Below are positions 8,658 through 37,827 of a DNA stretch of 64,000 bases, piece by piece (the first letter of the stretch is position 1; each line of letters starts with the position of its first letter). The notes beneath the pieces were generated by a model. It worked only from the letters and a program-made list of their open reading frames with translations. It ran no database searches and was not told the origin of the DNA. The stretch is taken from the NCBI RefSeq assembly GCF_947623445.1, contig NC_135242.1:8370001-8434000 (forward strand), read 5' to 3'. The position numbers were made by a program, and so were the translations under genes. This DNA is from Clavelina lepadiformis (Eukaryota; Chordata; Ascidiacea; Aplousobranchia; Clavelinidae).

Positions 8658-11600
8658 CTTTGTAAGCGATAACGATATTTCACTTTTATTCCAGAAACCA
8701 GATAATTGCCATGAAAATGAACTTTTAAAAAGCCTGTGGTGGATGTGAATATTACTTTCGTAACAGTCAAACCTGACATTTTCGCAAGCAAAGTAGTCCC
8801 GTCAAATATCTAGAAAAAACGCTTGCTATGACGTAATTAAAGCTGGTTTTACAAAGAAAAGTTACACAGACAGTTACAAAGAAAAGTTTTCCATTCACCT
8901 CCACGTAATCCCCCGAAAGTAGATAATTTCCTTGCAAGCTTTCGAAATAAACTTGATTTTTTTCAGTAGCATACAATATCCAGAAACAATCCAAAAAACC
9001 AAATGGTGGTGATAAGATCATTGGTGCTTTTGAAACCTCATAGTTTTGACCATAATTTGCTATAAATTGAACGTATAAACTTATTAACAATTTAACGCAG
9101 TTGATTAGTCTACAACTCCACATCCTGATTACTTATCCAGTTGTTCTTAACTTGAAATAACTTTTATATTCTTCTGAATTATTTTTCGTCGCATTTTTGA
9201 AATTGAGTTTATAAAATTTTTGTTTTAAAACTTTTATTTTTGCGTTTGTTAGAACTATTGCTATTTCAAAAGTATGGATTCGCAAAAAAGTTTTTTCGAT
9301 AAACATGAAGTTGTTTAAACTTGTTTATAAAAGGAGATAATTACAAGTAAATCCAATTCCACGTCCTTACAGAAAATTCAGTATGCAGTCACCGTTCTAA
9401 GTAAAATCTGTATGTTTAGAATATCTTTATCAGTTTCAACCCCGTTCGATTCATCCTCTAAGTCTAACCACTTGGCCAAATAAAAAATTGTTTATCGAAA
9501 TTGGGTCATAAGAGTTTTCGCACTACAGTATACCAGAATCTGTTATAGAAAATATTCTATCCAACCTATTATGGTTATAAAGTAAGCTGTAGGCTACAAG
9601 CGCACCACTAAGAATAATTAAGGTAGAATATCCCGCCTAAGCAAATGATATGAAGAACGTATTTCAAATAAGCAAATGGCAAAAAGGTTGGTCTATTACT
9701 TGCCATCGTGATAGGATGCTCTGAAACCAGCAGCACTTCCTGAATGATCAGTTACAAAATTAATTACAAGGAAGTCGTAAGTGGATATCCTTGATGTTCC
9801 CGGAATAATTGTTCCTGATAAACGTAAAACCGGTCCAGACCTATCATATACCTGTAAAAAAGGAAATTCTGTTAGTCAATTGTATGAAAGCAAAAGTGTA
9901 GAACCAAGCGAAATTATTGATATACCCGAATGTAGGTATTTCCTTGAAGTATTCCTTCTAAGAACGTAATGACAACTTTTTTACCCCACCCAGTCATCAA
10001 GTTCCACACACAAGTAACGCCGCTGGAATAAAACGTTGGATACAGAGGAGATGAAAAGTAACCGGTCGTTGAATTGGCAAAGATATTTATTTGAGATTGA
10101 CAAACTGGCTCTTCTATCAATGAAATAATGTATTTTATGTATTTTTTGACATCCTTAGTTGTTTGTTGGTTAAACGAAGAACCACTTCTTATAAAACAAC
10201 TACATATATAGTCTCCAATTTACTGTAGTAGCTTGTTGTTTTTCTTGTTTCTAAAAAAATGCAGTTATGTGTTTGTTTACTGCTGTTTACTGATGCTACC
10301 TGATTGAACTGTAGCCAAAAAGCCTTTGTTAACAACTGAAGAATCGCTGCTAAAAATGACTTCTACGTAATTATTTTTCGACGTCCAAACAAACGACGTA
10401 TCTCCTGATAATGTAAAGTCTCTTTGTCCGCTTTCCCGAATCTAAATCAAGCATGATGAATGATAAGGCTAATTAACTAACCGCCTAAGCACAAACATAG
10501 TTTAAGAAAAGAATGGTTACAAAATTGCTTTCTCATATTTAGGTGGAATATATTGCAAATCATTACGAATAAAAATGGGCTATATGGAAGAACAATTTTA
10601 AAAATAAAAAACGTTTCAAAACAAATTTGATCGTTCCGTTAAATAGGAACAGTAATTAATTAATTAATAGTTAAATATTGATAGTAGCCATCTACATTAA
10701 TAGCCATAATAATAAAACATGCTTACCCTAATTATGTCACAGCAATCTTGGGTTTTTACTTCAAGAAAATCGATTCTGATAATATATTGATCGTTTGCTT
10801 GCAGAATCCATTGACAAGACATGTTGTTGTGATAAATATATGGATAGAGAGGAGAAGAAATGTTCTTTGGTGTCTCGCCAACAAATTCAGAGTAAACGCA
10901 ACTTGACGTTGGATCGACTAAAAACGAAAATCAATCTTATTTTCTAATAAAAATAATAGTTAGGAATATGCTAAAAAATTGTACATGATATAGGTGTGGG
11001 CTGAAGGCTAGACCTTTTGGCGCCATACCCTCTCTTAATACGGCACGAAAGCCTGGACCAGAACCACGGTAATCACTGTTGAATGATAAACGCAGGTTAT
11101 TGTTGGTTGAAGTAAAAACAAGCCCAGCAGGGATTTTCCCGGAAAGTTGTCTCGTCTCATCAGAATCATAAGTTATCTAAATCAGAAAAAAAAAATTATA
11201 CAATAGCTTACATAATCAAGCAACATATTGTAGATGTTGATTATAATCATCTTGCCACGGTTAACTTGCATCATTTTAGCATCTGCGGAGAACAAAGTCT
11301 ACAGATATATGATTTCTGCAATAGTATCATTTACATATAACTCAACATTAAAAACAAAGAGGTTTATAAATTAACCTGGATAAAATCACAACAGTCTTCT
11401 GTGTCGATTTCCATAAACGTCAATTCGATCAGTTTATCAGCAGCTGCATTCATATTCCATTCGCATGATAAATCATCGGGATATAGACTGGGATAAAAAG
11501 GCGTTGAAAGTATCGTCGGGGTATCTGAAGCAGTTGCATTAAACCCGCATTTTGCTAAAAAAGTTTCATTTCGATTGGTCATTGACGTTATAGTGACGGA

Positions 11601-14100
11601 TAGCCGCAATTTAATTGCAATTATTACTAAAAAATGTTTTGTGTTAAATCGTACATATAAGCCTATATACTTGTTTTTCCCAGATTGCCAGCTAATGTCA
11701 AAGAATCAAAATGTGAGTCTGTCTTTGATTCCAGAATTACCTTTTTTATAAGCAGATCGAAATCCTTGTTCAACTTCCTGATCATTGCTATGAAACGATA
11801 AAATCAAGATCCCGGAATCTGCTATGAACGATTCCATTGTAATATCTCCACTCCTTCTTGCAATAATTGACAATCCATTGAAAATCTAACGACATTTAAT
11901 AAAAGATAAAATATGGAACAGAGACTCTTGAAAAACTCAAGAGGTATTTCTTAAACCATTTATGTTTTGTTAAAAGGCTCTTAAACCAAATTCTGTATTT
12001 GCTTTTGTTCCATATACAGTGAGACCTCGTTAATCCGGACCACTTCGTTTCGTCAAAAAATGTCGGTTTAGCGGGGTATCCGGATAATCGGAAAGTAAAA
12101 AATCAATCAATCTTGCAAATGCAGCACCGTGTTCAAAACGACGTATGCACCTTACTCCAATTCTAAGTGCCGAGTTTCTGGCTGGACAGCAACTAAAATA
12201 AAATTATATTTATTGTATGATCCGACCCAGTGTCGAACCCCAGAACCACCGTATTAAAGACGAATGCTCTCCAAGTGACGAACATTCGGTCGCAAATCGG
12301 TTTGACAACCGCTCTTGCGTGGCGAAGCATTCCGGTGGGACCAACTGTCTTGAACTTTCTTTGACCTGTTTCCAATCTTTGCGCAATGCGATATCAAAAG
12401 CTGATAGCACGATTGAGTTGCAGCAGTATGTCTTCAATAGATTGCCGCACTCAACCGATGTAATGTACGTATTTTTTTGCGACCGCGGAAGCGTTGTTTG
12501 TTACTGTTGATGAACAATTTATTTTTTCGTTTCTAAAATACTGTACAATACTGTACTTTTGAATCAATAAAGACCGCAACGTTATTATGCGTAGATATTC
12601 GGCTATTGTTTCGTCAACAAACTAACATAGTGTATTAGGACAGTCGTGAATCATTTTCGCTTAACTGTTAATAATCCGGTTTATCGGATTTTATTGCTAT
12701 TGATTTAGCACATTTGTTCCGAAACTTTAGTGTCGGAGTCGGACAGCGGGGTTTCCGGATTAAAGGGGTAAAATGCATAGGAAGAAATCCGTTCCCGGCA
12801 GTTTTGTGTCGGATAGCGGGGATTCCGGTTCATCGGGGTCCGGATTAACGAGGTCCCACTGTATATGAATACGAATATACGAATACCTCGATATGGTCAT
12901 TATCTGGTTCAGTGCTTCCTTCGATGAGATCTAATTGAATTTGTTTTCTTTCACGACCATAAAGGACCCAAAAACACTTCTCATTATTTCCATACGCATT
13001 TGGCCATCCGTCGCTCGTCAGTTCCAATGCGTTGTCGTCAACGACTTCAATATTTCCCCCACATGTTGCTACAAAGAAAACATTTTTTTATCTTTTATTA
13101 AAATTAATAATTAGGTTGACTGAAAGAAAGCGTGTTTTTGTTTATCAGCACAATTTCGCTTTTTCATCGCTCTCTGGAATACCTGTTGCCAGTTTTGCCT
13201 CAAACCCAGCAAATGATATTGCCTCATCCGATGAAAAAGTTACGTGAAGAGAATTTCCTTTTGATAATCGTGAAGTTCCTGGGATGATTTTTCCAGAAAA
13301 TTTTCCAATGATGTCTCCCCCATCAATAACCTATTAATAATTGGCATTTGATAAAATTGTGTATTGTTTCATAATTTTCTTCTAAAACATGCACAATACA
13401 ATTTTACCTGAACACGGTCGCAGCAACCTTCTGTGCGTCCTGCTATGAAAGTGATAAGTATGCGAAGACCATCAGGAGCTTGAATCCTCCATTCGTATGA
13501 AGCATCATTCGAATAAGGAACAAGTGGATAGCCAGGTGTGGAGAACGTGGAACTATTTTCGGCAGATATTTGTAAATCTGAATATAAGTTAGAAGATGAA
13601 TGAATAACTAAAAACAGTGAAAATGCCATGTAATGAAAGAAACGTTGCACCACGATATAACCAAAGTTGCACAATTAAAAAAAATTAAAACTAAGTTTAA
13701 CAATACCAGTAGCAATGGGCTGAATTTCAAAATCTAGTGCTTTTAAAATCCTCAAACTTTTTGACATATGGCTGCTTAAAATATACAGGCCTATTCACAT
13801 CACTAATGCAACACACCGGTATAAAGCTCCTTAATCACCCAAATACCCTGATTCGTTGTTAGGTTGTTGTTTATTCTCAAAAGAATTTGGTTAAATGATG
13901 TAACTTCTTTTAAATATAAATTAACTTGAATAAGTTTAAATAACTTCGAATAATGCAATTATATAGTTTTATATCCGCTATTCATTACCGGCTTTTTATA
14001 TCAGTGTGCAATACTTACCTAACACCACTGATGATGTTGACAATACTCGACTTTGGATCAACTGGATAGCAATTGTTAAGAGAACTGCTACAAAGCCCAT
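8658..14100 (-). CDS. CUB-A: secreted protein of six CUB domains
   Basis: Signal-peptide exon 14100-14019 (MGFVAVLLTIAIQLIQ, then a small-residue cleavage region), then six CUB domains of two exons each: 13577-13408/13330-13183; 13068-12887/11885-11741; 11554-11376/11176-11029; 10917-10727/10441-10300; 10113-9926/9851-9704; 9059-8899/8809-8658. Every domain enters in phase 1, changes exon in phase 0 and leaves in phase 1, except the last, which leaves in phase 2. About 678 residues are visible; the stop is not firmly placed. CUB marks are the first-half C...YP...YP...C-W pattern and the second-half F.SD....GF.A.Y. The types run 1-2-3-4-5-6, as in the last part of CUB-B. The first-half exon of domain 6 has Tyr (ANYGQN) where CUB-B has the first Cys (ANCGDN). 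The fifth domain ends at a GC donor. A Tigger-type MITE sits in the intron of domain 2. Function is unknown; secretion is inferred from the signal peptide. Confidence 0.85.
9699..9851 (-). other. Terminal type-5 CUB exon with GC donor or stop
   Basis: The second half of CUB-A domain 5 ends ASYHDG. The next bases are GCAAGTAA. Read as splicing, GCAAGT is a good GC-type donor leading to domain 6 in phase 1. Read through, the codons give Gly-Lys-stop. Five-CUB and six-CUB forms are therefore both possible. The same arrangement occurs in CUB-B near 19939-19947, and a GC donor without the immediate stop in CUB-C at 34001. Confidence 0.55.
12017..12861. mobile_element. Tigger/pogo-type MITE in a CUB-A intron
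   Basis: 845-bp element with terminal inverted repeats of about 25 bp. The left end begins CAGTGAGACCTCGTTAATCC and the right end is the reverse complement of CAGTGGGACCTCGTTAATCC. It is flanked by the dinucleotide TA at 12015-12016 and 12862-12863. This end sequence and TA target site fit the pogo/Tigger branch of the Tc1/mariner superfamily. No intact transposase is present, so it is non-autonomous. It lies in the intron between the two exons of CUB-A domain 2. Its interior (about 12322-12494) is shared with the hAT element at 19278-19763. Confidence 0.85.
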
Positions 14101-14893: not shown

Positions 14894-16056
14894 GACACTT
14901 AATCACGCGACACTTAATCACGCGACGCTTAATCACCGACACATAATCACTAGGACATTTAATCACGCGACACATAATCACTAGGACATTTAATCACGCG
15001 ACACCTAATCACTAGGACATTTAATCACGCGACATTTAATCACACATTTACAGTATCGGCTACCGTACACACTAGGTAACAATATCATGCATGGGAAATG
15101 TAAGCAACTGCACGAAGATAAACTAAAATCTGGCTTGACAGATAACGGTCAACTGTGTCAACACGATGACTGTCATCGTGTTGGTGATATTTCTGGCTAA
15201 ATAACAAAGAGTTTCTAGCTGGTGGAAGTCAACTTTAAATCAATGTTTTCTGAATTTGACGGTTTAATTTAAATTATCATTAGTATTGTCGCGATACCCA
15301 TCTATGCGTATATGTGGTGTACTTCGCTTTTGCAAAACTTTGTTTTAAGAAAGGTAATAGGTAAAAAGTTTTTTCTTCACGTCACAACCGTTTTGATGGT
15401 ACTTTGATACTCGAGCTTCGGTGACAATAGAATAATGTTACATATTACATAGATTATACGTAGTAATGCAAAATGACATGTTATTTCCTGATTGGCTAAT
15501 GTGTTTCTATAAAAACTAAGGTTTGGAAAAATATCCTCTTCTTGTCTCTACACATAATATCAGTTTTACCTTCTGGACTGTTCATTACTGAATTGGAGTT
15601 ATAGTTTTGTTTAAATGTGAAAAGATGATAAAAATGTTTCTAATGTGATAAAACTTATTTCGGACAATATAACAATTAAGTACCTGTACCGAATAAGGCC
15701 CACCTAACACTTAGAGTCTTAGACTGTATGAAGCTGGTGTTGATTTAAAGAAACATTATAGAGAAAGCCGGCGCAACGGAGTCAAAGACAATTGTCGGGG
15801 AGTTCTAAAAGAAAGACTAATAGTAATAGCCTTTGGCTTTAGGCCAACCTTAAAAGCAATCCACATCGTCATCCCCACAGAGAGATGCACATGAGCTTGA
15901 ATTACTGAATTTTCCTCACGATTTTCCGACATCCAAGTGATTATGTGTCGCGTGATTAAATGTCCTAGTGATTATGTGTCGCGTGATTAAATGTCCTAGT
16001 GATTATGTGTCGGTGATTAAGCGTCGCGTGATTAAGTGTCGCGTGATTAAGTGTCG
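14894..16056. mobile_element. Foldback-like element with arrays of a 15-bp unit in its arms
   Basis: The left arm (about 14894-15045) is built from imperfect copies of a 15-bp unit of the type GACACTTAATCACGC, with variants CGACACATAATCACTAG and GGACATTTAATCACGCG. The right arm (about 15936-16056) is its inverted counterpart, with GTGATTATGTGTCGCG and GTGATTAAATGTCCTA in the mirrored order. The unit order near the outer ends matches between arms, so these are long terminal inverted repeats. The interior has no transposase ORF. It contains an LTR-like segment (15436-15879) found again at 40230-40609. I could not define a clean target duplication. Confidence 0.75.
15436..15879 (+). repeat. LTR-like dispersed repeat, copy 1
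   Basis: Starts TGTTACAT, ends ATCCCCACA and is similar over its length to 40230-40609. Shared stretches include the ATTGGCT box, a TATA-like TATAAAA and AACGGAGTCAAAGA. Further shared stretches are TTTAGGCCAACCT and CATCCCCACA. The TG...CA ends with a CCAAT-like and a TATA-like box resemble a solo LTR. There is no matching 5-bp duplication, and similarity runs about 25 bp upstream of the TG, so the LTR reading is uncertain. Confidence 0.5.
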
Positions 16057-18263
16057 GTACACCATGGAAAAATAACTCTTGCCCATTTCATCCCTGGCAG
16101 TGTTTCCCAACCGAGGCGCCGCAAGATTTCAGACAAAACAAGGGATTTCCAGCGTAATCTTTTCATCACAAACAATTTTGTTTTGTTTAAAAAAGCCCCG
16201 AAGTAAATTTTTTGACATTATCAGTTACCAGCTTGTTCGTAAATGCCGCAAAAATAATTATAATTGGTAACCGATTTATGAAGCGTCGCGGATAATTTCT
16301 TATTGATAAAGAGTCAAATAATTGAAAATCTTGCAATTTTTCTAAGTCTATTTCGGTGAAACTTCACTTGTTAGAGAGTGTATGCATAACAATAACCGCT
16401 CCTTCAGCATACTCATTTCAAATCTTGCACGCAAAAGCGCTAAGCGCTTATAGCGGAGACCGGGACTGAAGTGACAGGAACACGTGTCCGTTGTTGCTTC
16501 ATAATTGGATAAAGTTTTCTCTTAAAAACATTTGTTTTTGTATAAGAAAGTTTGTGTGCCAGCGTGTCATTAATATGTCTTTTTGTAAAAAAAAAACGGT
16601 TTGAGACTTGTATTAGTTGAAGTAAAAATGATCTTTGAAAATTTCTATTTTGTGGCTGAAATGTGATTTTTAAGGGATAAGTTTATTTTTTAAAAGAATA
16701 TAGATTTCTTGTTCTATAAAAGTTTATTGCTGTTCGTAGATTCGCAATGTAATACTAGCTTTATAAGATTAAAGAAAGCTGAAGTCGATAGAAATATTTT
16801 TTGTTCAGCAATTAAGTCAGTTGCTTGAACATTTCGGTCTGGGGCTATGATAGCATCATACACGTATTAAATGAAACCGAGTTTTTTCTTATCGTTTCAG
16901 GTAAAGGCCTATAGTTTCTGGAAATAGACTGGGTGTTGACTATTGCATTGAACTCAATGCCTAATTCTTCATTACAGTTTTAAACTAACGACAGCACAAG
17001 AAAACAACTTAAAATGATTGACATGAGCAGGGTAGCGCTGTCAATTAACATAATTGATTACGTAAATCAATCCAAAAACTTTGGAAGTATTGTTTGTTAC
17101 AGATGCTGAAAACAAATCTTCAGTCCATATAGGCCTATGCTCCACATACTGGTATACTGTTAGACCGATGCTGTCCTAAAAGATTCTTACAAGAAGAGGT
17201 TATACGGATTGCTGGCTTATATACATTAATTTTTTTTATTTGAAGGCCCAATGAATTATTGGCTTTGCTTGTAATTTTTAACAATTGTTATTCATATGTG
17301 AGATTTGATGTGTTCTTAGTCCAGCCTATATTTAATTGAGAAAGGTGTCAGCGTGTTGCTAGAACAAGCACAAATTTAAAAAAGGGGATGATTAAAAAAC
17401 CACGTATATTAAAAGTGGTCAATTGCATAAGGCTAACTATTAGTATAGCCTACTAACCTTACCAGAAGTGAAACATGCAAGTTATTACGTTCATGTCGTA
17501 ACTCTCGCTTTCAAATCAGCGACAATTTCAAGTTACAAAATCTTATATTTCAAGAATTAGAGTTTCGGTTCAGACTACTTGCGTCTTGCGCGGATATCAT
17601 ATCATATCTTGATTCTAAGAATTCTTAGAACGTCTGAGAAGTCATTTCGGATTGTCTTTTTTCAATGTCTTTGTTTGCAATAATCGATTTGCTTCCATAT
17701 CCAATGGCATCATCGCAAACAGCACTTTTCCATTTTCAAGTTTTTTGACGCAAAATATCGACTAACTTGCATTAAGCCTACACCATAGTTACCATAGCCC
17801 CAGTCGTGGTGTTGTTTTAACATGTGGGCGATCAATAAATGTTAATGTGCTATATAGATTCTTTAAATATGGAAAGGAAAATTGACCATTTTGTTAAATG
17901 GTAAAGTTGTTCGATTTGAAATACCCGAACTTTATAGCTGATTAATGTTCTGCCTTTGAAATATTCGGATATCAATGTTACCTTCCAACCTGTACACAGT
18001 TCTATGCGTCACTATACGTCATCCTCGTAAAATTTGTTCCAATAACAAGAGATTTTTGCACTTGACATTTGTTGTAAAATGTTTGCTATATTCCATTCTT
18101 TTGCTACAATACACTAGTCTGGCGCACGTAAATAGTTATTTAAGAAATTTAATAGTTTTAAATCTTTTTTTACCAAGTTCATTATAATCAACGAAAATCC
18201 CAAAACAACTCGATGACGAACGAAAATCCTGAAATGAAATGTAACTTTCTGCATGATGCCAAT
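16057..18263. other. Spacer between CUB-B and CUB-A
   Basis: About 2.2 kb with no supportable gene. Short ORFs on both strands lack domains and splice context. It should hold the CUB-B 3' UTR on the minus strand. Apart from AT-rich stretches I see nothing distinctive. Confidence 0.35.
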
Positions 18264-18336
18264 TTATCCGTTCCTGTATAAAAAAGGTAAGGCAAAATTA
18301 TAAATTTAAAATTAAAGTCGTTTAGTAAACCACAAT

Positions 18337-18492: not shown

Positions 18493-18701
18493 AGCACAAT
18501 GGATTGAAATACGTTATGTATAGACTGTTAACCAAACTAGAGACAAAAACGTGATTGGTACTCAAATATTGCATTTTATTCAATAGATATCGTTAAAGTT
18601 TTATATTTTTTTCGTAAATTAAGAAGCAAGTTTTATTTTTAAAACTACATGGATTGATAACAAGATTACAAGTAAGCAGAAGTTGTAAGTAGCAAAGTTA
18701 C

Positions 18702-21700
18702 CTTTCTATGCGATAACGTGCCGTGAACGCTATTCCAAAAAAATTGTTGTTGCTGTAAAAATGAATCTTAAAAAAAGTCTTGGTCGACCTAAACACCTCA
18801 CTGTGAATACGCCTCGATTTTGTTGTTAATAAAGTGTTCCCGTCGAATATCTGTAGAATTCATATGAAGACGTAATAAAAAATTTAAATTTAATTTAAAT
18901 ACTTCATTTTTTAAAATCTGTTGTGCACTTACTTTAACGTAATCGTCCGATATGATATAACCTCCCGAAAGCTCAAAACGAACTTGATTTTTTCCTTTGG
19001 CATATAATATCCAGAAGCAATTCAGGTTATTCTGATAGAAAATTGTTGTCAAGTATAACATGACAATCCTTGGTGGTGTTAGCATTTTTTCTTCATCTGT
19101 CACCTCCACGTTGTCACCACAGTTGGCTGTAAATCAATGCATCCTTGCATAAAAGAACCGCCATAACTGCTCAAAAAGCATACATTACATCGGCCTTTTG
19201 AAGAGCGTATATTAAAGTTTTTGGTACAAACAAGAGAATTACCAGTCTTGATGTCAAAATATTGTATACGTATAAGGCAGGGGTGACGAACCTATTCGAT
19301 GACGCGGGCCACTTTGTCAGTTACGGCTGAGCAAGCGGGCCGCACAATTTTTTTAACATTTTGCATAATAATTAGCATTCAAGCACAACCGCTTCATTTG
19401 GCAGATTTTTAGCTGCTCCCGCGGCCGCAAAAAATACATCGATTGAGTGCGGCAATCTATTGAAGACATACTGCTGCGACTCAATTGTGCTATCAGCTTT
19501 TGATATCGCATTGCGCAAAGATTAGAAACAGGTGAAAGAAAGTTCAAGACTGCTGGTCTCACCGGACGCTTCGTTCAAGACTGCTGGTCTCCCGGACGCA
19601 AAATTTAACCCTAAATTTAATTTTCCGGACGGTATGGCAACCCTATTTCCTATAAGTCCTATATGCCTTGCATGTATGGGCGTTTGTCAAATCGTTTGGT
19701 GGGCCGCACAAAATTGTTTGGCGGGCCGCATGCGGCCCGCGGGCCGCAGGTTCGTCACCTCTGGTATAAGGCATAGACTGTAAAACGTATAATAAATATT
19801 AAGATTACCAAAATATTGTTTATACAAAAAAATGTTTTTTGAAATTTTATGCCAAATTCATGCCCCATATATAAAGCTTTTGAGTAATTAGATCAACCAA
19901 TTATCAAAACGATTTTTGTTGTGCACTGGTCCTAATATTTACTTGCCGTCGTGATAAGAAGCTCTGAAACTAGAAGTACTTCCAAAACGAGATTTTTTAA
20001 AAAAGATTTCTACACTGTTTGAGCTGGATATTCTTGATGTTACGGGAATAATTTGTCCTGAAAATCGTAAAAGCCGGCGACGGCCTTCATATACCTGTCA
20101 TAAAAAGAGGGCCTTATAATGCCTGCACACAACTGAGGATTCGACGTCCGTTAAGGAAACAAAAGTCAGGATTTAGGCAAACGTAAAGATATACCAGAAT
20201 GCTAAGCTCTTTGCGTTGTTGTCGTAAAAAAGATAGATCAGTTGCCATAATGTCTTGTAAGCATATGCATTATAGCTGCAGTAAGCAGTTCTGCTATTTA
20301 CACCTCATCACCGTTCCAAACGCATGCACTGAAAACATCAAATTACCAGGACTGAATCGTTTTCTTCGATAGATCCTTCAATTAGTGTATAAACAATCCT
20401 TCGACCAGGAGTTGACGTCAACTTCCAAAAACAAGTAACGGCATTTGGATAAAACCTGGGATACAGAGGAGATGAAAGATAACCAGTCGTTGAATTAACA
20501 GTAATATCCATTGAAGATTGGCAGACGTGTTCTTCTGCTGGGGACAAAATCAGAATTTCAATATATGCAGTATGTTCAATTCGACGTGGTGAATGATATT
20601 TTCGATATTCCTGGCCTTGTTCAACTCTTATAGTTTTGCTTAATTATAAATGCAGGCAATACTTTCAATTTACATTTTCAACTATGGTACGCAGAGCTCA
20701 ATAGTAACTTACCAGCATAATAAGAAGCTTTGAAACCCCCACTACTTCCAGACTGGCCCGTTTTAAATATTACCCGAAGATTGCTGTTAGTAGACGTTCG
20801 TGTGGTTTTAGCAACAATTCGTTCCGATATTTTTAAAATTTCATTTTCTCCATCCAATACCTGCAATAATTACGTGACCTATTGCAGAAAAGCAAAAAAG
20901 CAACCTAGATTCACTAACGAAAAATAAAACAAAACCTATTGGCTGTATGATTTACTTGGATATAATCATTTTCTTGAATGGTGCCTTCCATGAAGCTTAT
21001 TACAACCCTTTGACCGGAACTAGCCATTAAGTTCCACACACAAGTAACATCCTTAGGATAAAACATTGGATACAGAGGTGAGGCAAAGTAACCAGTCGTC
21101 GAATTAACAGCGATGTTTACAGGAGATTGACAGATTTGAATTTCTGTTGGATAAATGTTATTTTAGGCAAAATAAAGTTTTTGTCATTTTATTAAAGATA
21201 AGTTCAACCAACCATTTATTATTGACTGTTATTATTACCATTGACTATGTCTACTATTAACTCTCTTGAGTCATGTCGTAAAATACAAGATGATATAAAT
21301 CTCTTCATTGGTTTTGAAAACGTTTTATCAAAATTAACTTACCATCGTGGAAGGTAGCGAGGAAACCATTACTGCGTCCAGACTGATCAGTTTTGAAAAG
21401 AATTTGAAGCTTGTTGTTAGTAGATCTTCTTATAGTTCCAGACATAATTGGTCGAGACATGTTTAAAACATTTTTTGCTTCATCTAATACCTGCAATACC
21501 GGGAGCCGTTTGAAGATGTTTTAGAAAAGACATAATAACACAGCTAATAATTTCCCTTGCACTCCGTAAATATCAGAATTACTCAGGATACAACACTTTT
21601 TATGCTCTCTTGTGTACATTGTCCATTAATCTAGTTCCCGCTGTCTCCGTTGAATATAATAATAACAATGAAAACCAAAATGGCAACCCTCAAAATAGAA

Positions 21701-24700: not shown

Positions 24701-27700
24701 TAATCAAAACCACAGAAACAAAAAATCAGTGTAAATATCATCAGTTGATCAGTTGTTTTTTTTGACAGAAAAATATATGTTTTGTTGGAAATGGTATTAT
24801 CAGTTTTTGCTAGTGAAAAAGTATGGTCAATAAACAACGTCTATATAAGTGAATGAGCTGTGATAAGTCAGGAAAATGTAAACATCTGTAGAAGCCTACA
24901 AACAATACGACCAGTCGCTTTTTATGATAATTTTGATACAAACCCGAATTTTGACCAAATTTCAAATATTATAATAACTGCTTTTATCTTTTCTTCCTTC
25001 TCTTTTTCTTCAAACCATACACGGGCCCGTTGTGTTGGTGCGTTACCGTTTAGTTTCAAGGACGTCACAATTAAATTCTTACTTCGACTTATCTGCATAT
25101 GCATGCATTTTTTACATGTACATGCTTCATGACCTTGCGGGCTTACTGTGTATACCACGTGATAGTTGACACCAATCTGTAACACAACAGTTAGTATTTT
25201 GTTTTCTATCTTGTGATGGTAGTGTTGACTGAGAATTTTCGCATAAAACATGCTGTTTATCTGCAAGTGACTAAAATATGCTTTTTTGTGTTTTTGTGTC
25301 TAATGGTGTTGGTGCACCTCTGGTTGTAGGTGTAGCATCTTCGTCCATTTTGAACCAAATCGTTTAGTCCTAAGGTGGTCATTCTAAACAGCTTCTCAAT
25401 TGTGTGTAACTATAGATGACGTGTAGTCTCGAACAAAATATCACGTTAAAATATGTGACCGTAAACGGTAAAACAAAAAAAAAGCTTCACTAACTTATAC
25501 TTATTAAACTTTAAAAAACCGATTGTAAGTATATTTAGTAAGTATACAATCCACATACTTTACATAAGTTATATGAATTGCATGATCAACAAACTTACTT
25601 ATACAGTTCAAAAATCTGGACAAAGTTTTTTTTAGTTGCAATTTGTTGTACGGAGTATCTGAACTTAGTTGAATTATCGAATTTCACAGTGAATAAAATT
25701 AGGAAGACGAGACAAATTAGCTATTTTTCCATTGCACGAATGACAAAAATGACGCTATAGTTACAAAATAGTTTTACCTAAGCCTCTTAGTTAACTATAT
25801 TGCAACTCAAATCACACCATCAGTGATCAAACTTTGCATAAGTAAAAATAGGAATGTTTGTCAGGTTATAGTTGACCTACCATAAAAGTATAAAACTTAA
25901 TTCTTCGAGAAAGGGCTTCCAGAGATTAGTATAAAACTTTTCATAAAAATGAATGTAGAGTGTGGACTATATGTTGTTATCCATTAATTGCAGCTTTGAT
26001 TCATACAGAGATTTTAGTAAACGTGACTTACCATCATGATAAGAAGCTCTGAAACCTTCACTTGTCCCTGATCGATCAGTTTTGAATACAATCTTTAGTT
26101 TGTTGTTGATGGATGTTACTGATCTTCGTTGAATATTTTTTCCGGAAATTTTTGTTGTCTCATTTTCCCCTTCCAACACCTTTAACAAGGAATCACTGAA
26201 CAGAGGACCGTTCAGAAAAAATGAGCACCAAATAAAATCAATAAATATATAAGGCCGTATACCTGAATGAAATCATTTTCTTCAACTGATACGTCTAAAA
26301 ATGTAATTACAATGCTTCGACCCGGACTTGCCATCAAGTTCCACACACAAGTAACGCCATCCGGATAAATGCCAGGATATTGAGGGGACGTAAAATAACC
26401 AGTAGTCGAGTTAACAATGACGTCAACGGCAAAGCGGCAAACTGGCTCTTCTGTTAAAGTAATATGAAACTCTGCTGTGCAGTTACTGTAGTATAATAGT
26501 TCTATAATAATTGTTGTTATGCGAAAGCTTATTCAAAAATAACGGTTATTGTTGTAACTTCTCTCCAACATCGGCAGAGTGTATGTAAATACAAGCCCTA
26601 CATTATAGATGAAAATGATTAACAACATGAATAACTGAATTCAGTCTTATTTGTACTTTGACAGTGCTAATAATTTCCACGGTACCTGCTTCAATGGTAG
26701 CTAAAAAGCCTTTATCTACAATTGACGAATCACTATTAAATGTGATAGTTACGGAATCAGTTGTCGATGTCCACGTACGCAAACCTCCTGCTGATAAAGC
26801 AAACACTTCTTCCCCATTTTCGATGACCTATTAAGTGAGGAAACTATTTCAGTGAGATGGAAAAGTTCTATACACACGCTGGAAACGAAACGATATGAGA
26901 AAGAGTATGAATAAATGTAGCGATGTCGTATAATTAATAGCTTTTTCTCTATTTTACCTACAAAGATAATCATATTCTTACTTTAATTATATCACAACAT
27001 GCTTGTGTTCTTGCATCCAAGAAAGTGATTCTGATAATATGTTGATCGTTTGCTTGCAGATTCCATTGACAAGACATGTTGTTGTGATAAACATGTGGAT
27101 AGAGAGGAGAAGAAATGTTCTTAGGAGTCTCGCCAACGAATTCAGAGTAAACGCAACTTGACGTTGGATCGACTGAAAACGATCGATCCTTGTTAATGAA
27201 AATGGAAGTGTACGGACAGAGAGATGGATAAAAACAATCGATATCATTGACATTTGTTAAAGCGCCATACTCTCTCTGAATACGGCACGAAAGCCTGGAC
27301 CAGAACCACGGGAATCACTGCTAAAACGTAGGCGAAGATAATTATTGTTGGTTGATGTAAAGGCAAGTCCAGCAGGGATTTTTCCAGAAAGTTGTCCAAT
27401 TTGTCCAGTGTCATCGATTATCTAAACAAACACTCAAAAATAGCACTGTTTTGCACGTTGTTTATTTATCCAATGTATCAGCGTATGTAACCATGTCATG
27501 TACCACATGATCTTTCAGCGACAAATATCTGTTTTGTATTGGCAATGTCGGAAAAACAGTTCCTATATGTTATTTGTTTTTCACATACGAGTAAAAATAA
27601 AAGAAGCTTTCTGTAAACCTGGACAAAATCACAGCAATCTTCGGTTTCACCTTCAACAAAGGTTATTTCGATCAGTTTATCAACAGCAGCTCTCAAAGTC

Positions 27701-30700
27701 CATTCACAGAACACATTGTCAGAATATAGACTAGGATGAAAAGGTGTTGAAAGTGTCATCACATTATCTGTAGCAGTAGCTGTGAAACCACATTTTGCTA
27801 GAAAAAAGATCATGTTTTTGTTTCATGTTTAAAATACCACGCCCTCGTTATATTTTCGAAAGCAGGTTGAATAGCATTTTAGATTTGCTCTTCCATAGGC
27901 TGCACGAGTAAGTTTGATGGCAAACTATTTTCGATGTATCTCACCTTCTTTATATGTTGCTCGAAATCCTCGCTCAACTTTCTGATCATCGCTTTGAAAC
28001 GATAATATCAAGATCCCGGATTTTGCGATAAGTGATTCCGTTGTTATATTTCCGTTTCTTTTTGCGATACTTGACAATCCATCGAAAACCTGATTTCGGG
28101 TAAAATTACAACAAACTACTGACTATAGGAATTAAGGAAATAAAATATAAGTACAAGATATGGGTTTTCTGTGATTTTAAAGCTTTTTTCAATTTTTTAT
28201 AAATTATGTCATAAAATCATGGCCATCGACTTCTTGTACCTCGATATGGTCATTATCTGGTTCAGTGCTTCCTTCGATGAGATCTAATTGAATTTGTTTT
28301 CTTTCACGACCATAAAGGACCCAAAAACACTTCTCATTATTTCCGTATGCATTTGGCCATCCGTCGCTCGTCAGTTCCAATGCGTTGTCGTCAACGACTT
28401 CAATATTTCTCCCACATGTTGCTACAAAGACGGTATAGGCTTTATTCATCGTTTCTACTTATAGTATTCAATCATAATCATAACGCTATACATAATTGAA
28501 ATAACACAATACCTGTTTTAAATTCTGCTTGAAACCCAGCAAATGATACTGAATCATCGGAGGAAAATATTACGCGAAGGGAATTACTTTGTGATAATCG
28601 TGAAGTTCCTGGGATGATTATTCCAGAAAATTCTCCAATGGTTTCACTTCCTTCAATAACCTATATATTGTTGTTTAAGTTGTTTTGCACAGAAAGAAAA
28701 CGTTTAGGAAAAAGACCTAAGTTAGCTTTTCCGAAATAGACAAAATATAGACTTTTTATACCTGAACACGGTCGCAGCAACCTTCTGTGCGTCCTGCTAT
28801 GAAAGTGATAAGTATGCGACGATCATGAGGAGCTTGAATCCTCCACTCGTATGAAGCATCATTCGAATAAGGAACAAGTGGGTAGCCAGGTGTAGAGAAA
28901 GTTTTGACATCATCAGTAGATAATTGCAAATCTGAAAGGATATAGCACGATTAGTAAGTAGGCTACAGTTTAGAGCCCTGCGCGGGTATACCCGTTCCGC
29001 ACGGGTTGCTGATACCTGCTAGAGTTTTGCAGCGATCGTGGGCCGTTTGCGGGCATGGTCTTTAGAAATGCAGGGCTGTTAATTCGGGTACCCGCACAAA
29101 CTTGATTGTTTTTGCGGGCCGTTTGCGGATCTTAAATGCCGGGCGCGGGGTAGGGGGCGGGGGCGTTTGAGGTTGCACGCATTTAATCATTATGGTTTTA
29201 TCTATTTACAAGAATTTACTTCTGCTAAACACAATGGTATCAGTTCCTTTTGTTTACTTCAGAATAATAATATCATGAAATTAAGCAAGGTCAAGCGTTG
29301 TTTCCCTTCCTTTGTTATTACGCTACCGTTTCCAGTCATCATCGGAAGGATAGTGTTTATCAGATAGCTTCATGCTGATTTTATTGGATTAACGATCCCG
29401 CCTCAAAAAAGAATATGACATTCGTATAAGTGACAGACTTGTTGTTTTATCAACAAAGGAAATCAAAAAAAGATCCGTGTTCATTCATTCATTTTATTTT
29501 TTGTTCTCAATGTGGAGAGCCCAAAAAGTTTGCTGACGCAGGTTGTCGCAAACATATTAGCAGTTAATGACAATAATTTCCACAAATTGGACGGGCAAAC
29601 GTGACAAGTCCTCGAGGGCAAAAACGTGCATTACGGTCCAACAAGAGAATGTAAAAACTTTGCTCGCAACTTTGCCATTTTCACTAGGTGTGGCCGACAC
29701 CGCACACACATTTTCAATCGTTAATTACTCGAAAACTATACGTCGTAAACTGATCGGATTTTGACAGGTTTGTGGCAAAAATATCTGGCTTCCTGTATAC
29801 ATCATAATTGTAAATCAAAAGAAAGTGAATTTAGTGTAAATTAAGTATTTCCACAAGTGATACATTTCTAGAAATTTTTCTTGTTACGCCGCGTCACTGC
29901 TGTGCCGAAAACCAGCTGACCGCGAGAAGAGAACGCAAGAGAATAGTTAGTCGAGTTAGTGGTGCGTAAATGAGTAAACGAAAACGATTCGCCTCAATGC
30001 GGAGAGAGAGAAAAATTATGAAAATATGACAATATCTCAAAAATTACAAACTCCAACTTTATAAAACATTTTTTATAGATAGCTGAACATTTTTTAGGAA
30101 AAGTCACCAAGTTTCAAGTTTCTACAGCAAACAATGCAACTGTACGCCACGTTTTTCTGTGACTGTGTGCAGGAGAAGCCACACCTAGTGAAAATAGGGT
30201 TAACACAAACGCATATAATTTAAGCACATTTAATACAAAAAAAAAGTTTACGTTGATAGATAGTTTGGCAGGACATAAGCCTTGAGTCACAGTCCGATCT
30301 GTGTGTCTGGATGGAAAAAGAAAAACCCCACTAAAATGAACTCTATCCATGGGACCGGAGTCCCGTTCAGGTAGCCTGTGTACGCGGAAGGAATCTTTTA
30401 CACAGGTCGGTTGTGAACGAAAGTAGAAGATGTTCAGCTACGTCATTTATGTCCAGCCAGATTGTTTGATCAATTTGTTTGAATATGCATATAATACTGT
30501 CTAATATCTCCGTTGCGAAAATCTTAGTTTACCGCTCTTTTTCTTATAATTTTCATCCATTTTACCCCGCCTTGCTATCAATCTCCGTCTTACATAAGCA
30601 ATAATCGGATCGTTTAAGATCAATTGGCAAAAGTAGACTGCCTTGTACCAACGTTTGGCAAAAATAGAACGTGGTGTTTTATGTGGCCACCGGTGCGGCA

Positions 30701-31193
30701 AGTGAAAGAAATTTCAGTCTGACAGGCCATGTTATCAACAAAAGACGCTCTGCTTTAGAGGGACACAACATAAACAATATTCTATTTGTACACAGTTCTT
30801 TAAAAACATGCAGTGTCAAATGTAGTAAATAAACAAAACAAATACAAACGAGTCCTTTGCAAACGCGGGTTTCCGCAAATGAGCTAGTGCGGGCGCCGGC
30901 AAAGAAATAAAAAACTGTGGGTACAGCCGCGGGCTCCAGCAATTTAACCGATGAGGGTGTGGGTAAACAAATTAAAAATGCGGATACCCTCATACCCTAA
31001 TACTGACAATAGTGACAATTGCAATTACATCAAGACTGAAGTTATTGAGTTTACTTAATACTTGGAAATTAGAATCTCTAAAGCACAATGAACACGATCA
31101 AAATAGCGTATACTTACCGACTAATGACGTTGTAAAAACTAGTTTCTGCGCCAATTGGAGCGAAAATAGCAGTAAAAACACTTTAAGTCTCAT
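18702..31193 (-). CDS. CUB-B: secreted protein of thirteen CUB domains
   Basis: Signal-peptide exon 31193-31118 (MRLKVFLLLFSLQLAQ), then 13 two-exon CUBs: 28931-28762/28660-28513; 28421-28240/28089-27945; 27797-27619/27421-27271; 27172-26982/26827-26686; 26450-26263/26179-26032; 24678-24509/24397-24250; 24127-23946/23814-23670; 23445-23267/23060-22913; 22820-22630/22419-22278; 21898-21711/21490-21343; 21143-20956/20860-20713; 20537-20347/20094-19947; 19126-18933/18850-18702. All joins keep frame, giving about 1459 residues. Types run 1-2-3-4-5, 1-2-3-4-5-5-5, 6. The last exon leaves phase 2; a candidate end is a 10-nt exon 18273-18264 giving Asn-Gly-stop. I treat it as one gene because the fifth CUB keeps a normal GT donor and I see no signal-peptide exon between 24.7 and 26.0 kb. 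Two genes remain possible. Introns carry a LINE tail, a hAT MITE and a 2-kb GC-rich-ended insertion. Function unknown. Confidence 0.82.
19278..19763. mobile_element. hAT-type MITE in a CUB-B intron
   Basis: 486 bp with ends CAGGGGTGACGAACCT and AGGTTCGTCACCTCTG. A perfect 8-bp duplication GTATAAGG lies at 19270-19277 and 19764-19771, diagnostic of hAT insertion. GC-rich GGGCCGC repeats sit just inside both ends. It lies between CUB-B domains 12 and 13. The interior 19415-19573 is the inverted counterpart of 12322-12494 in the Tigger MITE. A 27-bp tandem duplication (TTCAAGACTGCTGGTCTC...) is at about 19537-19602. Confidence 0.9.
19947..24678 (-). other. CUB-B cassette 2 (types 1-2-3-4-5-5-5)
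   Basis: Same order as cassette 1 but with type 5 present three times (21898-21343, 21143-20713, 20537-19947). All three keep the NSTT...SPLYP motif (TSPLYP, ASPLYP, SSPLYP). The first two have GT donors; the third has the GC donor followed by a possible Gly-Lys-stop. This local triplication explains why CUB-B has thirteen rather than eleven CUBs. Confidence 0.8.
21984..22180 (+). pseudogene. LINE reverse transcriptase C-terminal tail, remnant
   Basis: The translation reads KTRKLKYSEVG...ICRSLIQ, then after a frame change GKRRRGRPRARWIDNIK. The Gly-Lys-Arg...GRP-R-RW-DNI pattern is typical of the C-terminal end of non-LTR retrotransposon ORF2 proteins. A stop and a frameshift separate the two parts, so it is dead. 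It sits in the intron between CUB-B domains 9 and 10, opposite in strand. Confidence 0.65.
26032..28931 (-). other. CUB-B cassette 1 (types 1-2-3-4-5)
   Basis: Five CUB domains in ten exons, the most compact of the four cassettes. Signature sequences by type: 1, STPGYPLVPYSNDASYEWRI with EGCCDRVQ; 2, TCGRNIEV with KCFWVLYGRERKQIQLD; 3, KCGFTATA with FCEWTLRAA and EDCCDFVQ; 4, DPTSSCVYSEFVGETP with MSCQWNLQAN and ACCDIIK; 5, VCRFAVDVIVNSTTGYF with TCVWNLMAS. The type-5 second half ends with a normal GT donor, so it should splice on to cassette 2. Confidence 0.8.
28967..31001. mobile_element. About 2-kb insertion in the first CUB-B intron
   Basis: The left side begins about CAGTTTAGAGCCCTGCGCGG and the reverse complement of the right side begins CAGTATTAGGGTATGAGGG. 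Both then carry GC-rich GGGTAT, CCGC and TTTGCGG stretches. This resembles degenerate hAT ends. A shorter inverted pair (CCATTTTCACTAGGTGTGGC near 29670-29700 and its complement near 30168-30200) lies inside. No target duplication or transposase is visible. The insertion explains why this signal-peptide-to-CUB intron is about 2.2 kb, against 0.26-0.44 kb in CUB-A and CUB-C. Confidence 0.4.
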
Positions 31194-33767: not shown

Positions 33768-34001
33768 TCCTAAAATAACAACTACTGTACTTTGTTTTAA
33801 TGGAAATTTTATTAACGTTTATAGGTAACTTCAAACACCTAGATACCTAATATTAGTATGGATAAGTGGTGACAAGTACTTGGTCTTTGGATTTGGCTGA
33901 ATTTAGAGAGACCATATATAACCAATCATTCACAATTATCATGTTAGGCAATTTTTTTGCTGTGCGGATATTTACAAACATTTGAAAAGTATATAACTTG
34001 C

Positions 34002-37000
34002 CGTCGTGGTAATAAGCTCTGTTGGTTACCGACTGGTGAACCTTGATTACAATTTCAATGGCGTTGTTGGTCGATGTTCCTGAAGATTCAGGGAAAAGTT
34101 GTCCGGAGATTTTTAATAGCTCCTGTTCTCCATTATAAACCTGTTGCAACAGAACTCAAGTATATGCGTATGACTGCTTTATAAGCAAATAAAGTGCATG
34201 GTTGTCCATCACACGAATCTCGAAGTACCCGGATATAATCATCTTGTTGAATGCTTCTTCCTGGAAACTTGATCTTTATCTTTCCAACGTTACGTGCCGG
34301 AGAGAATCTTGGACGCAACACACTACATAATAGGTATGACAGATAACCTCGGCTCGAATTAATGGTGATTTTAAAGGGTGAGTGATGGCAAACACTTTCT
34401 GTAAAATTCATAAGACACGACGTGTAAACTGTAGGTGGATTGTAATCTTACCTCGTGTTAAATTAAGTAGTCCATATCGCATCCTATTCACTCTTATATC
34501 GTATATATTATATAATAACTTCACTTTTTTCCTGAAGTGGTATTTGTTAAAACCCAGTTTACTGCACGTTTCTTTAGGCTTACCAATCTTCCCTGACTGA
34601 ACAGAAGCTAAGAAACCTTTGTTAGCAACCGAAGAATCACTTGTAAATATGACTTCTACGTTATTAGTTTTTGACGTCCATGAAGAGAGCGACGTATTTC
34701 CTGATAATCTTAATGATTCTGTTCCATTTTCAATGATCTGAAAAATAAAAAGGATTTTCAACGATGTAGGCCTATAGGTTACTGTAGCCTATAGTTGAAA
34801 AGACAAACAGCTTCTGATGTTTGTCTGATGCTTCTGATCTAAAGTTGGTCAAAATCAAAAATAAAATTAACTAAACCACCAATTATAGATATTTACCCGA
34901 ATTACGTCACAACATTCTTGGGTTTTTACTTCAATAAAATTGATTGTGATGACCTTTTGACGGCCGGTGCGCAGAGTCCACTTACAAGACATGTTATTGT
35001 GATAAATGTACGGATAGAGAGGAGAGGAAATGTTTATTGGTGTCTTGCCAACAAATTTGGAGTAAATGCAATTTGACGATGGATCGACTGAAAAAGAAAA
35101 ATTTCCGCTTTTAATCAAACAAATAGCAAAAGACTAGTAAACGTGTTGGAATGCAGATTTTGATAAATAAACGTGGTTCGAAGATTCGAAGGCCAGACTT
35201 TTTGACGCCATACTCTCTCTAAATACAGCAAGGAAGCCTGGACCCGAACCACGGGAATCACTGTTGAATAACAAACGAAGGTTATTGTTGGCTGAAGTAA
35301 AAACGAGCCCTGGAGTGATTTTTCCAGAAAGTTGTCTTGTCCCACTAAAGCCATCAATTATCTAAATAAAGTTTAAACTTACTTAAAATGTAAATCAATC
35401 AACATAGTGAGGTGCAGATTTTTATTTGTCATACTATAATTGGATCACAGAAATGTTCATCAAATATTTCTTTAAATGGATTTTTATAATTTTTTCATTT
35501 ACTTTGAAATAAATGTCAATCAGTTTTACCTGAATAAAATCACAACAATCTTCGGTGTCACTTTCTACAAATGTTAATTCGATCAGTTTATCAGCAGCTG
35601 CATTTAAGTTCCATTCACAAGACAAATCATTAGGATACAGACTGGGATAAAAAGGTGTTGAAATCGTCCTCGTTCCCACATTCGCCGAAGCATTTGCATT
35701 AAAACCGCAAGGAGCTGATATAAATTTTAGCAATGATTGATGTTAAGTTGTGATATAATGAATAATTATAGTTTACATTCAAGGTATACGGGCTGAAAGC
35801 TTGTAGCACTTAACTCAGGTAACCTACCGACAACTGAGTTATGTCATCACAATACCAAACTCGTCGGATAAGATATGGTTTTTGTGCAGATCTGCATGGT
35901 ACAATATACATGATTGCACAAACGACTTGCTTTAGTTTTCAGCTTGTCGCTCAGTTTACACTTTACCATATCTAACAAACTTGATATCGGTGTAATCGCA
36001 AGGAATTTTTCTATTCCACCCTACTTTGCGTTTCGAATATTGCAACTTGATGATTGCACCCCGATCTGATATAATGTATCCTGGTCCGCGTGTAATTATT
36101 TGATTGCGCAAATCTAAGCAAATCATGGAGGAGAGCCCCCGTACTGCTGCAAAATAAAGCCGTATCAATTACTTACTTCCACACCGGAGAGGCGCTCGCC
36201 TATTGACCGTTTCGACCGTTATTTCGATCAGCTATCGTATACAAGCTGACTGCTCCATTGCAGATTTTATCGTGCGTAGGCTACTATGTTGTAACTAAAG
36301 TGAGAAATATTTTAAAGCCAGCACTCTTACCTTCCTTATAAGAAGCTCTAAATCCTCGTTCAGCCTCTTGATCATAACTGTGATATGATAATATCAATAT
36401 TCCAGATTCTGCTATAAACGATTCCGGTTCAATCACTCCACTAAGTTTTCCAATACTTGACAACCCATCAAAAACCTTATATCGATAAAAATATAAACGT
36501 TATTGTTATAGTATATATCGACTATTTTATACAGAAGGTTTGATCATTAGAAATTTTGAATATACTGGCGTTATAAAAGTTTGGTTTAGGACTATACATC
36601 AAATTAGAATTTAATACTTCGATATAGTCATCGACTGGTGCAGTGCTTCCTTCCACAAAATCTAATTGAATTTGTTTTCTTTCACGACCGTATAGCACCC
36701 AAAAACATTTTGTGTTATTGGGACCTTTTGGCCAGTCGTCGCTTGCCAGCTCAAGAGAATTTTTGGTATTAATTTCAACATTTCCCCCACACGTTGCTAC
36801 AAAAAGGTTTTTAGTAGAAAAATGAGTTTTTATAGAAATTGAAATTGCAGTTTTCATTGCAAATACATAGAAATAGAAATATAAGTTATCTGTTTTATCA
36901 AGTATGTATTTTTATTTTTTGCAAGTTTCCTTTTTTAACTGTTAGCATGCAGTTCCGGTTTTAAATTCACTACATAACTTCACGGCGTTTGACTTTGAGC

Positions 37001-37827
37001 ACGCTTTCCTTGTTTACGAAATCTATCAAAATTCCAAATAAGCCTACAGTATATACCTGGCTTAATTTTGATTTCAAACCCAACAAACGAAACCGTTTTA
37101 TCGGAAGACAATATTACGCGAAGAGAATTTGTTTGTGATAATCGCGAAGTTCCTGGGATGATTATTCCAGAAAATTCTCCAATGGTTTCACTTCTATCAA
37201 CGATCTAATGTGTATAGATAGGTTTTAAACATCCAAGACGTTGAAAAAAATCCAGATTAGTTGCATTTCTAAAAATTGAGAAACAATATTTTTCATACTT
37301 GAACTCGGTCGCAGCAACCTTCTGTGCGTCCTGCTATGAAAGTGATAAGTATGCGAAGATCATCAGGAGCTTGAATCCTCCATTCGTATGAAGCATCATT
37401 CGAATAAGGAACAAGTGGGTAGCCAGGTGTGGAGAAAGTTTTGACATCATCAGCAGATAGTTGCAAATCCACGGATACGGTGTAGTTGTAGCCTATTAAG
37501 TATTTATTAACTTAAAATTCAGTTATTTTTTCTTAAGCTTATATTTCAAAATGGCACGAGACATTAGTCTACTAATGCAACAGTTAATCGTTATAGGCCT
37601 ACTCTTTTCATTGCACAATATAGAAGTCTAATAGGAATCACTAGACCCAATGCAAAAGATACTTTATGGGCCTACGTTTTGTGCTACTTCTCTTGGCAAC
37701 TCTTCGTATAAAGACAAAAATCATATTGGCTATATCATGTGCAAAACTTACCAGACGCAGGGGTTGATTCTACATGTTTTTGAATCAATGGGACACTAAT
37801 CATCAACAGAAATGTTGCAAATCCCAT
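34002..37827 (-). CDS. CUB-C: secreted protein of five CUB domains
   Basis: Signal-peptide exon 37827-37752 (MGFATFLLMISVPLIQ), then CUB exons 37492-37299/37204-37057; 36796-36618/36475-36331; an extra exon 36143-35967; 35714-35530/35361-35214; 35087-34897/34737-34584; 34398-34229/34140-34002. All join in frame, about 635 residues. Types run 1-2-(extra)-3-4-5. Two ancestral splice sites are lost and apparently replaced in frame: the acceptor of the first CUB exon and the donor of the fourth CUB. The fifth CUB is worn: the usual YP...C-W stretch is altered (SYLLCSVLRPRFSP) and shortened. The last exon ends at a GC donor or reads on to a stop at 33853. No type-6 CUB follows. Function unknown; secretion inferred. 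Confidence 0.8.
35967..36143 (-). other. Extra phase 1-1 exon in CUB-C, CUB-like
   Basis: A 177-base open exon between CUB types 2 and 3, with acceptor TTTTGCAGCAG (a NAGNAG pair) and donor GTAAAG. It codes 59 residues and has no counterpart in CUB-A or CUB-B. It ends with CDYTDIKFVRYG, like the C-x-D-[YF]-x-x-[IV]-x-x-x-[DY]-G motif of canonical CUB domains, and begins with GLSSMICLDL. Both ends are phase 1, so it could be included or skipped without frame change. Confidence 0.55.

Follow-up and report, generated by a model that had tools for sequence, protein, structure and literature searches.

Three tandem genes built on a repeated five-domain CUB cassette in the ascidian Clavelina lepadiformis

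What is encoded by three neighbouring genes that appear to consist of nothing but CUB domains, and does their arrangement stand alone? The question is raised by a 64,000-nucleotide stretch of the genome of the ascidian Clavelina lepadiformis (C3:8,370,001-8,434,000; hereafter the window, to whose first letter the positions of the cluster refer), in which a first-pass annotation had noticed 24 CUB domains in 48 exons and had left the role of the products open. We built gene models from a six-frame self-comparison and splice-site tables, and compared their domains with one another, with profile libraries and with the whole genome (searches covered 209 megabases (Mb) in 95 contigs). The reading that we prefer, with a probability of about 0.6, is that the three genes are tandem paralogues encoding secreted, CUB-only, multivalent extracellular binding or scaffold proteins, and that they form a local branch of a wider family of CUB arrays.

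Gene models and domain order

The models contain three neighbouring genes on the minus strand, C, B and A, each consisting of a signal-peptide exon followed by CUB units only. The 24 CUB units occupy 48 exons, giving 51 exons with the three signal exons, and these independent models therefore confirm the number and place of the domains first counted. Once spliced, each gene reads as one open frame with a single terminal stop and no premature stop or frameshift. Every CUB unit is split once, at the identical site, by a phase-0 intron, and the unit-to-unit introns are in phase 1, exactly the regularity that had been described; there is no sizeable linker between units.

Gene C (625 amino acids, 11 exons, five CUB units) begins with a signal-peptide exon at 37752-37827 (MGFATFLLMISVPLIQ...) and continues with CUB 1 of type 1 (37057-37492; two exons, the first with a shifted acceptor), CUB 2 of type 2 (36331-36796), CUB 3 of type 3 (35214-35714), CUB 4 of type 4 (34584-35087) and a decayed CUB 5 of type 5 (33853-34398), whose C-terminus is extended to the stop. 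Gene B (1460 amino acids, 27 exons, 13 CUB units) has its signal-peptide exon at 31118-31193 (MRLKVFLLLFSLQLAQ...), followed by a first cassette of types 1 to 5 in order (CUB 1, 28513-28931; CUB 2, 27945-28421; CUB 3, 27271-27797; CUB 4, 26686-27172; CUB 5, 26032-26450), a second cassette in the same order (CUB 6, 24250-24678; CUB 7, 23670-24127; CUB 8, 22913-23445; CUB 9, 22278-22820; CUB 10, 21343-21898), two further type-5 units (CUB 11, 20713-21143; CUB 12, 19947-20537) and a final type-6 unit that includes the stop codon (CUB 13, 18698-19126). Gene A (679 amino acids, 13 exons, six CUB units) has its signal-peptide exon at 14019-14100 (MGFVAVLLTIAIQLIQ...), one cassette (CUB 1, type 1, 13183-13577; CUB 2, type 2, 11741-13068, with an intradomain intron of 1001 bases; CUB 3, type 3, 11029-11554; CUB 4, type 4, 10300-10917; CUB 5, type 5, 9704-10113) and a weakened type-6 unit at the end, again including the stop codon (CUB 6, 8654-9059). 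The order 1-2-3-4-5 thus occurs four times, once in C, twice in B and once in A, as the annotation had it. Below, a domain is named by its gene and number, e.g. B8.

The three signal-peptide exons all have a phase-1 donor and are alike by eye, which supports the claim that each gene has its own. After the first 30 residues no hydrophobic segment of membrane strength was found in A, B or C (19-residue windows, mean hydropathy at most 1.43). With a signal exon and no later window of membrane strength, the products should be secreted; they carry 5 (A), 15 (B) and 8 (C) N-glycosylation sequons. In A and B the stop directly follows the last CUB strand (after RLQR and RIER, respectively), and AATAAA lies 60 (B), 39 (C) and 651 (A) bases downstream of the stops, with an ATTAAA at 147 bases in A. 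We looked for a signal exon separating the two cassettes of B, and the best matches (E, the expectation value, 0.043 and weaker) were unconvincing; B is therefore read as one gene with 13 CUB units. A search for a type-6 remnant downstream of gene C yielded at best 14 residues on the opposite strand (E 0.023), which we did not accept.

Domain types, profiles and the junction before type 6

Within-type identity was 55-88% for types 1-4, 44-59% for type 5 without C5 (C5 itself, 31-38%) and 47% for type 6, while identity between types was 44% at most. By identity, types 1-4 therefore stand clear and type 5 barely does. A tree computed on 109 columns, with 23 domains of the window (all but C5) and 44 of other loci, shows all six types as clades, each with an ultrafast bootstrap of 99-100. 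Types 2 and 6 cluster with seven domains of arrays elsewhere in the genome, at 9.15 Mb of contig C1 and 21.66 Mb of contig C3 (98/85); types 1, 3, 4 and 5 form one group (91/79, under the tool's mark for strong support), and 17 of the 64 inner branches are open.

Pfam scans recovered these units as CUB domains with few exceptions. Counted as PF00431 stretches in whole proteins at E up to 0.5, 13 of 13 units were found in B (E 1.8e-170), 5 of 6 in A and 4 of 5 in C, i.e. 22 of the 24, A6 and C5 being the two not recovered when all the domains first counted were put to the profile. Scanned singly against the PF00431 cut-off of 21.4 bits, A1-A5 scored above it, B13 (19.6 bits) and A6 (13.4 bits) below it, and C5 was unmatched. 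Half-domain profiles from which C5 was omitted matched 23 N halves and 24 C halves of the modelled exons (E below 0.01), and the rest of the window yielded no match under E 0.085. Non-CUB Pfam models gave no match over their curated cut-offs in A, B or C: FN3_IL27B_N reached E 3.8e-9 in B but only 37.2 bits, short of its cut-off of 42, Peptidase_C13 in B was at chance level (E 0.14, 12.1 bits against 22.8), no protease or ZP model was above cut-off, and no EGF or TSP1 model was found at E up to 0.5. Together with the hydropathy, these scans support the claim that the genes hold CUB domains without EGF, protease or membrane segment. The first-pass observation was correct in nearly every detail.

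CUB domains typically have two disulfides, C1-C2 and C3-C4, an arrangement from which these 24 units depart, as none has a cysteine at the fourth position. Type 1 has only an adjacent cysteine pair (CC), types 2, 5 and 6 have cysteines at both C1-C2 places (at one only in A6), and types 3 and 4 combine a pair at the C1-C2 places with the adjacent CC. The loop of the third cysteine is shorter than that of cubilin and contains the adjacent cysteines, and our guess is that CC might form a vicinal disulfide. Domain B8 (type 3) retains Glu, Asp and Asp at the positions that phmmer aligns with cubilin, and by eye this acidic set is complete in all four type-1 copies; we take these positions to hold Ca2+ in C1s and cubilin and to grip basic residues of the ligand. 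A DNA pattern for E-x-CCD matched 460 times in the genome against 303 times for a reversed control and is too loose for counting; a stricter version matched five times, four of them in the window's own type-3 exons.

Among proteins of solved structure cubilin was the best match (3kq4, E 8.4e-19 for A domains 3-5 and 3e-22 for B8), followed by CUB domains of PCPE-1 and neuropilin-2. Cubilin is an endocytic receptor that works with amnionless and carries an EGF cluster ahead of its long CUB run. The cluster shares the long CUB run, but has no EGF model and no fourth-position cysteine, has CC in types 1, 3 and 4, and, unlike cubilin, combines a signal peptide with a stop that fits a freely secreted product. 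The CUB proteases (astacin/tolloid, ovochymase, C1r/C1s/MASP) carry a protease domain, whereas A, B and C have none above cut-off. The Pfam model PF23062 (CUB_M02D8_5_3rd, cut-off 32 bits) scored 243.7 bits in whole B, 123 in A and 129.2 in C; in single scans of six domains types 3 and 4 passed, types 1 (31.2) and 2 (12.4) failed and types 5 and 6 were unmatched; the likeness to M02D8.5 is one of profile scores. A literature search found no paper naming M02D8.5. A nematode source had been considered on account of this Pfam name; a search for SL1 RNA found none in this genome and none in 14 controls, and therefore carries no weight.

The boundary between types 5 and 6 differs from the others. 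A GT donor (e.g. GATG/GTAAGT) follows internal type-5 domains, whereas in A and B the final domain of this type reads GATGGCAAGTAA or GACGGCAAGTAA, and in C GACGGCAAGTTA. If A5 and B12 are read through, a stop follows immediately (HDGK-stop), and type 6 can therefore attach only via a GC-AG intron: GC donors at 9703 in A and 19946 in B give phase 1, matching the type-6 acceptor in both genes. Models that entered type 6 through a phase-2 junction and ended in a very small exon broke the frame, with 8 stops in B and 4 in A; we therefore adopted the GC-AG junction and placed the stop within the final CUB exon. The closing of A and B by type 6, claimed from the start, thus stands in the models and depends on a predicted GC-AG splice. 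On the sequence, the type-5/6 boundary would be the one place in the genes with a built-in alternative end.

The intron that precedes B13 contains a GC-rich insert (19278-19763) with matching inverted ends (CAGAGGTGACGAACCT / AGGTTCGTCACCCCTG), flanked by an 8-base direct repeat (CCTTATAC) at 19764-19771 and 19270-19277; it is presumably a small element of hAT type.

Constraint and homogenisation

We estimated the ratio of non-synonymous to synonymous divergence (dN/dS) by the Nei-Gojobori method for 40 within-type pairs, pooled by type and half into 12 classes. Pooled dN/dS was 0.17-0.58 across the 12 classes. Synonymous divergence was high in type 5 and in the second halves of type 6, with values above 1 accompanied by far lower dN.

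In some pairs the two halves of a domain have diverged to different extents. For A2/B2, dS was 0.06 in the first-half exon and 0.48 in the second (Fisher p 0.004), and for A3/B8 0.12 and 0.47 (p 0.045), both p values being uncorrected; the test covered five pairs chosen by eye, the others giving 0.049 (B4/A4), 0.15 (C1/B1) and 0.14 (C4/A4). A permutation test of the longest shared run, which ignores any difference in constraint between halves, was applied to 34 pairs of types 1-5 without C5, and gave p below 0.05 in nine: six in the first half only (A4-B9, 0 of 2000; A2-B2, 0.0015; C1-B1, 0.003; B5-A5, 0.032; A3-B8, 0.043; B4-A4, 0.0495), two in the second half only (B5-B12, 0.045; C4-B9, 0.049) and one mixed (C3-B8, 0.037). 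With Bonferroni correction only A4-B9 clearly survives and A2-B2 is at the edge. At the DNA level the tracts measure 194 bases at 98% identity (A2/B2 first-half exons, 12884-13077 against 28237-28430), 193 bases at 96% (A3/B8 first-half exons, 11370-11562 against 23261-23453) and 180 bases at 95%, and overshoot the exon by a few bases only. The homogenisation of a few first-half exons is therefore well supported, and it extends beyond them. Gene A is like the first cassette of B at type 2 and like the second at type 3, a likeness to different cassettes which indicates that the genes are mosaics.

The pooled dN/dS values and the exon-sized homogenised tracts together argue for genes in use, and we infer that they are expressed in some tissue, with splicing that should follow the models at least in outline.

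Related arrays and possible roles

Having established the build of the cluster, we asked how far it is shared. At least 152 CUB matches were found genome-wide, in many places. Twelve other loci (L029-L040) were examined, nine of them (L029-L037) for the split of the domain: 43 of 44 pairs of N and C halves lay in different open frames at least 61 bases apart, the exception being in L032, so that the split is present at eight other loci, including two (L036 and L037) with other cysteine patterns. In the twelve loci CC occurred in 40 of 57 N halves and an E/D-CC-D/H pattern in 37 of 57. Six loci (L029, L030, L031, L033, L034 and L035) had runs of four to seven split pairs, in which all 36 pairs were split and 34 were of CC type, and three of these (L031, L033 and L034; stretches of 10 kilobases, one strand each) matched only CUB-type Pfam models at E up to 0.01. 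The donor was in phase 0 in 48 of 52 cases, a weak sign because a valine codon also yields GT and because two of the cases come from the unsplit L032; the location of the halves in different frames is the stronger evidence. Arrays at 4.23-4.25 and 4.33 Mb of contig C8, 21.66 Mb of contig C3, 9.15 Mb of contig C1 and 10.0 Mb of contig C7 thus resemble the cluster in their split CUB halves, and differ from it in domain types and order, with at most 45% identity (full genes were not built there). The number of split pairs and the CC runs lead us to conclude that split, CUB-rich arrays are general in this genome and not special to the cluster.

The annotation knew of no gene family with the same arrangement. 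This holds insofar as none of the 68 scored of 232 candidates from the genome search was a second 1-2-3-4-5 cassette, the best cassette match outside the window's exons among those 68 having 45% identity; the build itself is common to the eight other loci. A unique arrangement is not supported, as types 2 and 6 group with arrays on contigs C1 and C3 and the M02D8.5-like Pfam model fits. By title and the start of the abstract, in a literature search with most subscription papers outside its scope, we found no paper on this cluster; PMC12373286 mentions use of a C. lepadiformis proteome, and annotated models therefore exist.

Several features of the other arrays deserve mention. The array L034 (2841-9463, contig C1) has five domains of the type-2/6 class at intervals along its length. 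Of the domains that separate them, the tree excludes one from this class, the others having been judged by eye only. Two CUB classes probably alternate there as a two-domain cassette. L039 (3662-6169, plus strand) and L040 (4358-6655, minus strand) hold intronless multi-CUB frames of 835 and 765 amino acids with some E-x-CCD domains, and further long frames with CUB domains lie at 22.3-22.9 Mb of contig C4, 6.65-6.66 Mb of contig C3 and 8.34 Mb of contig C2; such frames could be retrocopies of CUB arrays. Near-identical tandem CUB exons (L030, 1814 and 3670; contig C7, 10008542 and 10030278) point to recent copying in other arrays too.

Around the cluster itself, the plus-strand flanking genes at 1170-1484 and 3700-5952 encode the C-terminal domain of a Y-family polymerase (IMS_C) and a Sec1-family protein. 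A FERM-domain gene (FERM_N, _M and _C; 54446-59270, minus strand) is followed by an acidic open frame of 834 amino acids, possibly a later exon of it, in which no Pfam match was found at E up to 0.01. A short tandem repeat (15968-16087, minus strand), with TLNHA units in one frame, occupies part of the space separating genes B and A.

How could the cluster have arisen, and what might its products do? We suggest that the 1-2-3-4-5 cassette is the unit that has been copied and retained: gene A has a single cassette closed by a type 6, gene C a single cassette whose end is decayed, and B two cassettes with two extra type-5 units and a type 6, perhaps produced by unequal crossing-over between cassette genes. 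The CUB domains would bind extracellular partners (e.g. matrix, mucus or body-fluid glycoproteins) in a multivalent and partly Ca2+-dependent manner, the fixed domain order may hold a composite binding surface together, and B would be a longer, potentially bivalent form.

A number of observations count against this reading of the genes as secreted binding or scaffold proteins in use. They concern i) constraint, which is weaker in type 1 (pooled dN/dS 0.48 and 0.58) and reaches 0.80 in single pairs, two further pairs having an undefined dS; ii) integrity, as A6 has lost its first cysteine and is decayed, C5 is decayed with an alignment gap across the segment of the second cysteine and Trp, and gene C is without type 6; iii) splicing, as three of the 48 CUB exons, the second halves of C2, B5 and B9, require an AAG acceptor and two junctions (in A and B) need GC donors; and iv) ligands, of which the sequence gives no indication. 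In addition, by eye, Glu is present in only two of four type-2 copies and replaced by Gln in all four type-4 copies, and type 6 has no acidic set; since the set is incomplete in types 2, 4 and 6, Ca2+ binding cannot hold for every domain.

The alternative that survives best, though we judge it rather unlikely, is by analogy a structural protein of the tunic or of a secreted mucus or house-like matrix, in which CUB rods would hold matrix parts together. The repetitive, secreted, CUB-only anatomy fits this role, and a tunicate extracellular matrix, the Oikopleura house, is described as having CUB domains in its secreted proteins oikosin 4 and oikosin 6 (PMC3390340), a likeness by description. 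A gamete-recognition or egg-coat protein is improbable. The analogy would come from an ascidian sperm protease, whose CUB1 domain is reported to bind the vitelline coat, and from the repeated CUB domains of sea-urchin EBR1 (both PMC9265791), but EBR1 is described there as having thrombospondin type-1 repeats alongside CUB, whereas A, B and C have no TSP1 model and no protease, EGF or ZP model above cut-off. Nor is there an excess of amino-acid changes, pooled dN/dS being below 0.6 in all 12 classes, a measure of paralogues in one genome and not of speed between species.

Equally hard to favour is an array for immune or self/non-self recognition, in which gene conversion and differences in copy number would generate diversity. 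The copies in tandem, the mosaic tracts and the branching orders that differ among domain types might be read in this way; however, where the tracts are strongest the first halves resemble one another instead of differing, and constraint dominates. Highly doubtful, too, is a more elaborate proposal drawn from the sequence, in which the cassette would be a composite recognition unit whose first halves are homogenised while the second drift, and the GC donor (located at the junctions of A and B, with its sequence also present in C) would act as a switch, intron retention giving HDGK-stop forms without the closing domain. The decayed C5 and A6, the AAG acceptors and the missing type 6 of C would suit a decaying, unexpressed pseudogene cluster, which is nevertheless very improbable given the intact spliced frames and dS values up to and above 1 at far lower dN.

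The cluster is a local variant of an already known type, the CUB array. It documents in a tunicate a set of CUB-only genes with clear copying of a cassette and concerted evolution in exon-sized tracts, and it points to the wider CUB arrays of Clavelina, with candidate roles in tunic, feeding, fertilisation or defence. The exon-sized homogenisation and the possible GC-donor switch may be two points of some interest; if the switch and the composite unit were true, an ascidian would have a family of secreted, modular recognition proteins in which cassette number, conversion and alternative termination supply the variation. If the products are only structural, the cluster would be an ordinary lineage-specific expansion.

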